From NCBI GenBank assembly GCA_945787885.1, contig CALZJF010000023.1, positions 1 through 37,274 on the forward strand: 37,274 bases of DNA. The letters are read 5' to 3'. Origin of the DNA: an uncultured Bacteroidales bacterium (lineage in GTDB: Bacteria; Bacteroidota; Bacteroidia; Bacteroidales; Bacteroidaceae). A model generated the notes under the pieces. It searched no databases. It saw only the letters and a list, made by a program, of their open reading frames with translations, and was not told the DNA's origin. This document shows, piece after piece, positions 34,510 through 37,274 of the stretch; the stretch's first letter is position 1; every line of letters starts with the position of its first letter. Both the position numbers and the translations under genes were made by a program.

Positions 34510-34964
34510 ATTCGTGTTCCATCAAATTTTTCGCGTGGTATATGTTGAACACGAATTACACGAATGGCATGAATGTGTTTGAATGGCGTTTGTGAAAGAT
34601 TCGGGCGATTCGTGATATTCGTGTTCAATAAAAAATTTCCGCATGGTATATGTTGAACACGGATTACACGAATAACACGAATGTGTTTGAATGGCTATTC
34701 CGAAAAATTCGGGCGATTCGTGATATTCGTGTTCCATCAAAATTTTCCGAGTGATATATGTTGAACACGGATTACACGAATGGCACGAATGTGGATGAAT
34801 GGCGTTTGCGAAAGATTCGGGCGATTCGTGCAATTCGTGTTCCATCAAATTTTTCGCGTGGTATATGTTGAACACGGATTACACGAATAACACAAATGTG
34901 GATGAATGGCGTTTGCGAAAAATTCGGGCGATTCGTGATATTCGTGTTCCATCAAAAATTTTCG
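34510..34964. repeat. Array 1 of a 108-bp palindromic tandem repeat
   Basis: A partial tail (from 34510) and four units starting at 34539, 34647, 34755 and 34862 (periods 108, 108, 107 bp). Each unit starts TATATGTTGAACACG and carries CACGAAT three times, then ATTCGTG twice, so its two halves are inverted copies: ACACGAATTACACGAAT against ATTCGTGATATTCGTGT (2 mismatches in 17). A middle segment GAATGGCGTTTG...GATTCGGGCG separates the arms. Units vary by scattered substitutions. Plus-strand stops occur in copies 1 and 2 of the frame that is open in array 2. The array begins 34 bp after the DUF6377 stop and ends 92 bp before the restriction gene's distal end. Confidence 0.9.
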
Positions 34965-35055: not shown

Positions 35056-35763
35056 TTACTTCTTAATGTAATTTGAAATAAGTTCTTTAATTGTATCTTC
35101 TGCCTTTTCTTGTCCAACCAATTCAATGAGCTGGTTGTAATCTTCAATCTCATTATCGGTGAAAGTTATGACTATCTGGCGTTCTTCTCTGCCAGCTATA
35201 TGGGAATAACTCTCTGGATGAGCCCAGAAGCAATTTCTGCAGAACTCTACATCCTTTTTTGTCCAATTTGGACAATGCTCACAAGTCTATGATTTTGCTC
35301 TGTTTGCAGATGGACTTAACAACATGTAACAATCAACATTATCTTCTTGTTCGCCTCCGATTTCATAAGGTATTCTATGGTCGATTTGCAACAGTCTTTC
35401 TTCCATTGCTTGAAGGTAAACAAAACATACTGCCCCATATTTGTCAACAAGAGCCTTTTTCAAAGCATTCGACAATGCAGTTCTGCCGGCCACCTTTGAA
35501 ACTTTATTGTCCACAAAAACAGGATGCCCAAACTTGTATGCCGCAATATTCCTGCCATCAGATGACTTGACACGATAAGTGACAAGATTGACACCTCGTT
35601 CTCTGACATCACGGGCTGCACGAGGAGCATGTTCATAGCCGTAGTCATTGGCAAGTTCTTCTGTTGTTATGAAACCATGTCTGATGATATGCTGGATTAC
35701 GGTAGAAGGACGCTTGTCTGTTATTGAATTGAGTTTTTTCAAATCTGTTTTTGATAATTTCAT
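35056..35763 (-). pseudogene. HNH restriction endonuclease with an in-frame TAG at codon 159
   Basis: The frame from the ATG at 35763 reads 158 aa to TAG (35289-35287), and continues in the same frame for 76 more sense codons to TAA (35058-35056). The first part holds the HNH nuclease core: LQIDHRIPYEIGGEQEDN (125-142) with Asp128-His129, Asn142 and the NRAKS end (154-158). The part after TAG begins TCEHCPNW and continues EFCRNCFWAHP, a CxxC...CxxC zinc-ribbon-like segment, then a helical end. NRAKS-W-xCEHC is what I would expect of intact relatives, so TAG probably replaces a Trp codon (TGG). Its start overlaps the methyltransferase stop (ATGA). Options: recent nonsense mutation, read-through or sequencing error. 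The 158-aa product alone might still fold but lacks the zinc part. Confidence 0.8.
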
Positions 35764-36662
35764 AGAGCAAATAATAATTGTTCTTGTGCTATAGGAGCGA
35801 CAGCTTCGCGTAAATGGTGGCTCAGGTACAGTGCTTCTACTGTAGTCTCTTTTTTACCCAACAAGAGACTTTGGCTTGAAAGGCCGGCATTTAACATGAT
35901 TTTTCTGAGCCCTAATTCTTCGGGTAGGTCAATTCCATATTGTTTGTCGCCGCATGTACCGTCATAACTGATGATAAAATCAATGCCTCTTCTGTTGAGG
36001 TCATCAACACACTCCACAAAATCATTGAAATCTATGCCAGAAAAATAGCGACAGTCGCGTGACGAGCAAACTCCCTGATATGGGGGATCCATATAGACCA
36101 CATCACCCCGACGGGCGTTTCTTGTTACTTCACGGTAATCCACAGATGAAAATTCGGTCTTATCCTTTAGGTAACTGGAAATCAAAAACACATTTCGGGC
36201 AAGATTCTTAGGATTAGTGCCCATTCTGCGTTTATCAGGAGATTGATTGAACTGCCCCGAACTGCTATATCGCACAGACCCCTTGACGCAACGGGCAAGC
36301 AGATATAACATATTTGCCGCACTCTGATTACCTTTGTTAAAATCATCCCTTACCTTATAGAAGTGCTCAACGCTACCACCTTGATAGGTCAATTGTTCAC
36401 TCCATACTCTTGTATAGTCATCTATGAGGCGTTGGGGATGCTTAATACATTCCTTCAACACATTGACAAGAGGCTCGTTCAAATCATTTAGCAAATAATG
36501 GTCTGCTCTTCTCTGTTTGGCAACCGCTATTGTAATTGCAGCCATACCTGCAAAAGGTTCAATCAATCGGTTAAACCTTTTTGGAATATACTGTAATATT
36601 TGGGGCGCAAGATTTCTTTTGGACCCCTGATACTGTACTATATGCGGAGTTGCTCCATTCAT
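35760..36662 (-). CDS. DNA adenine methyltransferase, D12 class (type II RM)
   Basis: A 300-aa N6-adenine methyltransferase using S-adenosylmethionine. YQGSKRNLAPQIL (11-23) and FAGMAAITIA (37-46, motif I for cofactor binding) precede the catalytic DPPY (192-195, motif IV), the alpha-group order of Dam/D12 enzymes. LNDLNEPLVNVL (58-69) is also typical. Length is normal and all motifs are intact. It overlaps the HNH endonuclease gene by 4 bases, so they form one restriction-modification operon; a fragment of an XRE-type regulator lies directly upstream. With the endonuclease interrupted, it may now act as an orphan methylase. The target sequence cannot be read from the protein. Confidence 0.92.
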   Translation of the reverse strand: MNGATPHIVQYQGSKRNLAPQILQYIPKRFNRLIEPFAGMAAITIAVAKQRRADHYLLNDLNEPLVNVLKECIKHPQRLIDDYTRVWSEQLTYQGGSVEHFYKVRDDFNKGNQSAANMLYLLARCVKGSVRYSSSGQFNQSPDKRRMGTNPKNLARNVFLISSYLKDKTEFSSVDYREVTRNARRGDVVYMDPPYQGVCSSRDCRYFSGIDFNDFVECVDDLNRRGIDFIISYDGTCGDKQYGIDLPEELGLRKIMLNAGLSSQSLLLGKKETTVEALYLSHHLREAVAPIAQEQLLFAL

Positions 36663-36975: not shown

Positions 36976-37274
36976 ATGGATAGAAACAATATTACACGCC
37001 GCACGGCTCTCAAAATTATGGGGAGTGCTGCATTGGCCACTATGATGGCTACAACAGGAGCATCTGCTCTCACTTCTTGCATCGATAGCAGAAAGAAGAA
37101 TTTCCGCGTGGTATATGTTGAACACGAATTACACGAATGGCACGAATGTGTTAGAATGGCGTTTGTGAAAAATTCGGGCGATTCGTGCAATTCGTATTCC
37201 ATCAAATTGTTCCGTGTGATATATGTTGAACACGAATTACACGAATGGCACGAATGTGTTAGAATGGCGTTTGT
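36976..37274 (+). CDS. Tat-signal lipoprotein gene, 5' part, running in frame into repeat array 2 (partial)
   Basis: From the ATG at 36976 the frame is open to the window end (99 codons). Residues 1-35 form a twin-arginine signal peptide: TRRTALK (7-13, Arg8-Arg9), a hydrophobic stretch, and LTSC with Cys35 as a possible lipidation site. Such beginnings occur on exported redox proteins (flavodoxin- or oxidoreductase-like) in Prevotella, but no enzyme domain is present here. At about residue 42 (37099) the 108-bp repeat starts, and the frame reads it as a 36-residue unit (VYVEHELHEWHECVRMAFVKN... ), twice before the edge. Either the gene was invaded by the repeat (then a pseudogene), or a short signal-peptide fragment has been joined to it. 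Confidence 0.55.
   Translation, partial: MDRNNITRRTALKIMGSAALATMMATTGASALTSCIDSRKKNFRVVYVEHELHEWHECVRMAFVKNSGDSCNSYSIKLFRVIYVEHELHEWHECVRMAF
37099..37274. repeat. Array 2 of the 108-bp palindromic repeat, continuing beyond the window
   Basis: Units start at 37112 and 37220 (period 108 bp); the sequence before the first (AATTTCCGCGTGG) equals the end of a unit in array 1 (AATTTCCGCATGG), so the repeat begins at about 37099. In this array GTGTTTGA of array 1 copy 1 reads GTGTTAGA and the AATAAC variant is absent, so the plus frame stays open. Confidence 0.88.

Follow-up and report, generated by a model that had tools for sequence, protein, structure and literature searches.

Lone DNA methyltransferases have been proposed to arise by decay of the nuclease gene of a restriction-modification system (Seshasayee et al., 2012, as summarized in PMC6471742), whereas the excerpted text of Oliveira et al. 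(2014; PMC4176335) states that solitary methyltransferase genes rarely arise by such degradation. It is also stated there that loss of the methyltransferase with the nuclease kept may be lethal. A published parallel comes from Mycoplasma agalactiae, for which an excerpt of PMC9465063 describes a frameshift that disrupts hsdR and regards methylation as independent of this gene. As to the nucleases themselves, the zinc sites of HNH type II enzymes stabilize the fold rather than read DNA, according to the relevant part of a review (PMC4081073). Winged helix (wH) domains joined to HNH domains are described in the sections of PMC11037411 dealing with m6A-dependent type IV endonucleases; the enzymes listed there as wH-HNH have 224–283 amino acids and act on methylated DNA, and 87% of the wH fusion genes were reported to be without a methyltransferase among their neighboring genes.

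The DNA analyzed in this study (the window) is a stretch of 37,274 nucleotides from an uncultured Bacteroidales bacterium. Near its end lies a two-gene type II restriction-modification cassette, likely of horizontal origin, in which the endonuclease gene was very probably hit recently by a nonsense change at an invariant tryptophan codon.

Organization and Genomic Setting of the Cassette

The cassette and its flanks comprise the following features, each given with the evidence used for its assignment:

35760..36662, minus strand: Dam/D12-family DNA adenine-N6 methyltransferase gene, 300 aa, open (Pfam, TIGR00571, PADLOC, DPPY motif)
35760..35763, minus strand: ATGA, shared by the end of the methyltransferase gene and the start of the nuclease gene (sequence and ORF ends)
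35290..35763, minus strand: type II restriction endonuclease gene, codons 1–158, winged helix and HNH-like core (PADLOC REase_II PDLC03566)
35530..35700, minus strand: winged helix-turn-helix region, residues 22–78 (Pfam HTH_39)
35290..35394, minus strand: HNH-like core, residues 124–158, DH...N (weak Pfam HNH in relatives; conservation of D128/H129)
35287..35289, minus strand: in-frame TAG, codon 159, Trp in the homologues seen (translation and homologue alignment)
35059..35286, minus strand: 76 sense codons past the TAG, Cys4 (CxxC...CxxC) segment and C-terminal tail (PDLC03566, homologues)
35230..35283, minus strand: Cys161–Cys178 stretch with cysteines 161, 164, 175, and 178 (conservation in 16 aligned intact homologues)
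35056..35058, minus strand: TAA, the family-typical gene end (comparison with homologue ends)
34523..34953, no strand assigned: tandem repeats of ~108 bp on one side of the cassette (repeat search)
37096..37273, no strand assigned: the same ~108-bp repeat on the other side, up to the contig end (repeat search)

The nuclease frame begins with an ATG at 35763 on the minus strand, with the methyltransferase gene upstream of it. A preceding reading of the sequence without database searches (the sequence-only reading) had described 158 codons, a TAG, exactly 76 in-frame sense codons, and a TAA, which is precisely what was found, with the strand, not given there, being the minus strand. When the organism's own genome, a draft of 96 contigs that is 91% complete, was searched, the first half of the nuclease and the methyltransferase gave one match each, and no second nuclease copy able to substitute for the interrupted one was present at E up to 0.001.

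The G+C content of the cassette is 0.38–0.43 (35.0–36.5 kb) in comparison to 0.53–0.59 for the genes at 31.0–34.2 kb; another stretch of low G+C, also 0.38, is located at ~28.5–29.0 kb. Among 58 genomes of the genus, only three contained a match to the nuclease, namely the window, a fragment at a contig end, and a weak HNH match. We infer that the cassette was probably acquired horizontally.

The flanking ~108-bp repeat is partly palindromic and has 111 matches across the own genome, including long arrays elsewhere (e.g., contig C29, 403–2178), and the window contig itself ends inside the repeat. The repeat array also meets an ORF at 36976–37100 on the plus strand, of which only an N-terminal fragment beginning with a signal-like stretch is left, suggestive of a gene truncated by the array.

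Identity of the Two Genes

The methyltransferase gene, whose frame is open over 300 codons with a DPPY motif at residue 192, matched Pfam MethyltransfD12 (1.5e-39), PADLOC MTase_II (1.9e-70), and TIGR00571 dam (137.2 bits, cut-off 114.85), and its best solved relative is the DpnII methyltransferase 1 (2dpm, 8e-18). Presumably being expressed, it should still methylate DNA.

For the nuclease, the part before the TAG matched positions 23–160 of the 235-position PADLOC REase_II profile PDLC03566 (1.3e-25), and the part after the TAG, searched alone, matched positions 162–221 (1.1e-16). Since both halves match one profile in order, the TAG stands where just one profile position would be. The window gene is thus covered over most of its length, on both sides of the stop, by a profile that was also matched by all 16 aligned intact homologues. 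Of the hallmarks of a type II restriction-modification system, the adjacent methyltransferase is present (Dam/D12 gene, ATGA overlap) and an intact endonuclease gene is absent (TAG at the invariant Trp159).

The closest intact relatives have ~235 residues and consist of a winged helix, an HNH-like stretch, and four cysteines near the C-terminus. The winged helix is recognized in the window half by Pfam HTH_39 (E 0.00013, 22.2 bits, cut-off 21.3), which is also listed for five out of nine homologues (E up to 10). Pfam HNH was not listed for the window half in the Pfam search; it matched residues 124–158 of the intact homologue L002 weakly and under the cut-off (E 0.047), and was found in three of nine homologues, at best with 1.8e-6. 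D128 and H129 are invariant in 16/16 aligned intact homologues. The same holds for cysteines 161, 164, 175, and 178, which make up the well-formed CxxC...CxxC segment noted by the sequence-only reading. A profile built from nine homologues retrieved no solved structure below E 0.35.

A tblastn search with the 76 residues following the TAG yielded 14 distinct loci. Eleven of them are 61–88% identical over 74–76 residues (seven intact, three disrupted elsewhere, and one cut by a contig end), and the remaining three are distant (32–45% identity). Judged by homology, the stretch is coding sequence and not a chance open frame.

Codon 159 and the Age of the Lesion

The sequence-only reading had guessed that codon 159 was originally a Trp codon. 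This is supported by the homologues, as Trp is present at this position in 18/18 intact homologues (16 aligned and two further ones). The remaining 11 copies, which have lesions at other places or run off a contig end, have Trp there as well; a stop at codon 159 occurs in none of these sequences. It had also been considered that homologues without the 76-residue part would make the TAG the natural end of the gene. The HNH-like core does lie ahead of the TAG, as would be expected for a functional product of 158 residues. However, none of the 18 intact homologues lacks the 76-residue part, its four cysteines do not vary among the 16 that were aligned, and the family profile PDLC03566 spans it, which argues against the TAG being the natural end and makes a functional shorter product extremely improbable.

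Apart from the stop, the gene appears well preserved. The claim that nothing else in it is decayed holds as far as this was assessed: 45 of the 46 columns that are invariant in the 16 aligned homologues are kept, Trp159 being the only one lost. Substitutions assigned to the window branch amount to 13 synonymous and five nonsynonymous ones before the TAG and to five and one, respectively, after it; for L002, an intact relative, the corresponding branch counts are 12 synonymous and nine nonsynonymous changes before codon 159 and nine of each after it (66 nucleotide differences between the window and L002 could not be polarized and were excluded from these branch counts). By a simple count, the neutral share of the window branch is at most about 0.19. 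This low value, together with the loss of a single invariant column, suggests a young lesion. It has to be considered, though, that little amino-acid change is equally expected of a gene that is read through or mis-sequenced, so that these numbers indicate a young lesion, or a frame still under selection, or a base error, between which sequence alone cannot separate.

An error in sequencing or assembly, or a base from a minority strain, at this one position would mean that the gene is intact and the restriction-modification system working. This explanation draws on the fact that a single codon separates the window gene from its family, with the 45 of 46 invariant columns kept, and on the draft state of the genome. 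On the other hand, single-base substitution errors are rare in consensus assemblies. Moreover, broken nucleases are common in this family, being found at seven of the 24 assessable loci besides the window, even though some of these may be draft errors themselves. We therefore regard an error as unlikely, yet as the most serious competitor of a genuine nonsense change.

If the change is genuine, the TAG would end the protein after 158 residues, with the winged helix and the HNH-like stretch kept and the invariant Cys4 segment and the tail lost. Judging from the conservation of the missing part, this loss would most likely leave the nuclease inactive, and the lesion, seen in the single genome of the species at hand, is most likely recent. 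The cell would accordingly shift from restriction-modification to methylation only, with a lone methyltransferase left. With the methyltransferase still in place, losing the nuclease in this way would not endanger the host, and the possible lethality of the reverse loss (excerpt of PMC4176335) would explain why decay is one-sided.

Possible Read-Through of the TAG Codon

Of the three interpretations offered by the sequence-only reading, recent inactivation of the nuclease with the methyltransferase kept is thus the best supported, whereas little evidence was obtained for a read-through switch that limits nuclease dosage. A programmed or tolerated read-through would yield a little full-length nuclease, and the part following the TAG has indeed changed as little as the part preceding it on the window branch (one nonsynonymous and five synonymous substitutions). 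In addition, a small hairpin starts ~11 nt past the TAG, and RNA folding gave z-scores of −1.66 for the 100 nt after the stop (16 of 200 shuffles fold as well) and −1.87 for 150 nt around it (5 of 200 shuffles as good). However, a similar hairpin is predicted for two relatives without the stop, L003 and L006, and the four such relatives that were folded gave z-scores of −1.06 to +0.36. These z-scores are mild only, and no clear recoding structure was found.

The decoding machinery likewise speaks against read-through. Release factor RF1 is present (458.8 bits, cut-off 423.25), and TAG terminates two of the 22 window ORFs picked as genes, so that a genome-wide reassignment of TAG was rejected. 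The own genome contains 36 tRNA matches above the cut-off, and none of the 34 loci covering all of them has a CUA anticodon; the sole tRNA with the anticodon "tag" is an ordinary tRNA-Leu. A suppressor tRNA was rejected on this basis, in a draft that is 91% complete. Known recoded genes can be recognized by a stop that is conserved in relatives with coding sequence downstream, but here it is shared by 0/18 intact and 0/11 other copies, and neither a suppressor tRNA nor a loss of RF1 was seen in the 91% complete genome. A search for literature on read-through combined with restriction-modification found nothing. All in all, the TAG looks like an ordinary stop, and programmed or tolerated read-through is considered very unlikely. 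Equally little credence is given to the related idea that a trickle of read-through product restricts incoming DNA at very low dose, with the whole 235-codon frame still under selection.

A further conceivable arrangement is a two-subunit enzyme in which the core of 158 residues is joined by a Cys4 peptide with a translation start of its own; in favor of this, it could be said that both parts are intact in sequence. However, no in-frame ATG, GTG, or TTG follows the TAG before residue 56 of the 76, and the only start codon found, the TTG at that residue, lies beyond all four cysteines. Since no homologue was seen to be split in this way either, two subunits are hardly to be expected.

Breakage Pattern Among Related Loci

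The state of both genes was compared among relatives. Of 399 genomes sampled from the host's family, eight contained a close methyltransferase (defined by an E-value of at most 1e-80), and its gene was free of stops in all of them; the nuclease beside it was intact in four and broken in the other four, the window included. The limit of 1e-80 could miss a badly broken methyltransferase, but the nuclease search in the same 399 genomes showed none. This search matched nine genomes, with the nuclease of the ninth (G263) being cut by a contig end.

Over all searches, both genes were readable at 25 loci, 17 of which have both genes intact and eight a broken nuclease next to an open methyltransferase gene; a broken methyltransferase was found at 0/25. 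Not included in this count are L002 (intact nuclease, but a methyltransferase gene running off the contig), L013/L037, L023, and L043 (nuclease gene running off the contig), L046 and L096 (nuclease remnants for which no methyltransferase was found at the locus), L016 (a partial match of 28%), L026–L034 and L038 (weak matches to HNH only), and loci that repeat places already included, namely L001, L011, L015, L019, L025, L035, L036, L047, L048, L049, L082–L088, and L094. The eight nuclease lesions are all different and comprise the TAG of the window, frameshifts at various places, one case with an internal deletion, and one 255-nt insertion with stops. The latter (L024/L035, genome G566) lies between the two matched parts, interrupting the nuclease near residue 128, with 12 stops in the shared frame of these parts and an open methyltransferase beside it; it was counted as broken based on our own translation, although the search table gives it as a stop-free frame of 340 aa.

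If hits fell according to gene length, finding 8/8 lesions in the nuclease would have a probability of about 0.0014. Draft-genome errors could account for some of the eight, although errors of this kind should not spare the methyltransferase. In a tree built from the methyltransferases of 23 out of these 25 loci, the broken state requires seven changes, at least six of them when only well-supported branches are considered, and it shows no clustering (as few changes sufficed in 413 of 500 shuffles); parts of this tree are unsure, as long branches meet and seven of the 20 inner branches are open.

A methyltransferase gene lies beside the nuclease at 26 of the 28 loci with a readable flank (window included). 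The two exceptions, L046 (G1026) and L096 (G1114), carry the same C-terminal remnant of the nuclease, and no methyltransferase was found at either locus, as if representing a later stage of loss. Regarding mobile elements, no nuclease homologue was matched in phages, viral contigs gave a single 28% partial match that was not used, and plasmids gave two records that were both used. One of the loci, L017 on an Aeromonas plasmid of 5128 bases, is a distant family member in which a gene for a helix-turn-helix regulator overlaps the nuclease start and the methyltransferase gene is convergent to the nuclease, possibly a controller-type arrangement.

Comparison With Known Systems

The window gene follows the PDLC03566 REase_II family in order and differs from it by the TAG at one position. 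With HNH (beta-beta-alpha-metal) type II enzymes (e.g., KpnI, Hpy99I, and PacI) it shares an HNH-like core and a Cys4 segment, a likeness known here by sequence, with no solved match below E 0.35. The m6A-dependent wH-HNH type IV endonucleases, compared by their description in the excerpted part of PMC11037411, are alike in having a winged helix joined to an HNH domain. Unlike those genes, which mostly stand without a neighboring methyltransferase, however, the window nuclease and its relatives are accompanied by an adjoining one at the 26 of 28 flank-readable loci mentioned above, which fits an enzyme that is blocked by methylation.

The loss of a nuclease through a nonsense change with the methyltransferase left is a known kind of event. 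As with the orphan methyltransferases that, according to PMC6471742, Seshasayee et al. (2012) described next to degraded restriction genes, an open methyltransferase gene with its motifs adjoins a disrupted nuclease gene; in contrast to the cases summarized there, the lesion here consists of one stop codon, and no decay was seen beyond it. The window copy seems to represent an early stage of decay. By itself, the window gene is most likely ordinary, similar losses appearing to have been repeated in related systems. The pattern in the family as a whole, with the nuclease broken at 8/25 loci and the methyltransferase at 0/25, bears on the question of whether lone methyltransferases originate by decay in place, as proposed by Seshasayee et al. 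(2012), or mostly arrive as such, as favored in the excerpted text of Oliveira et al. (2014).
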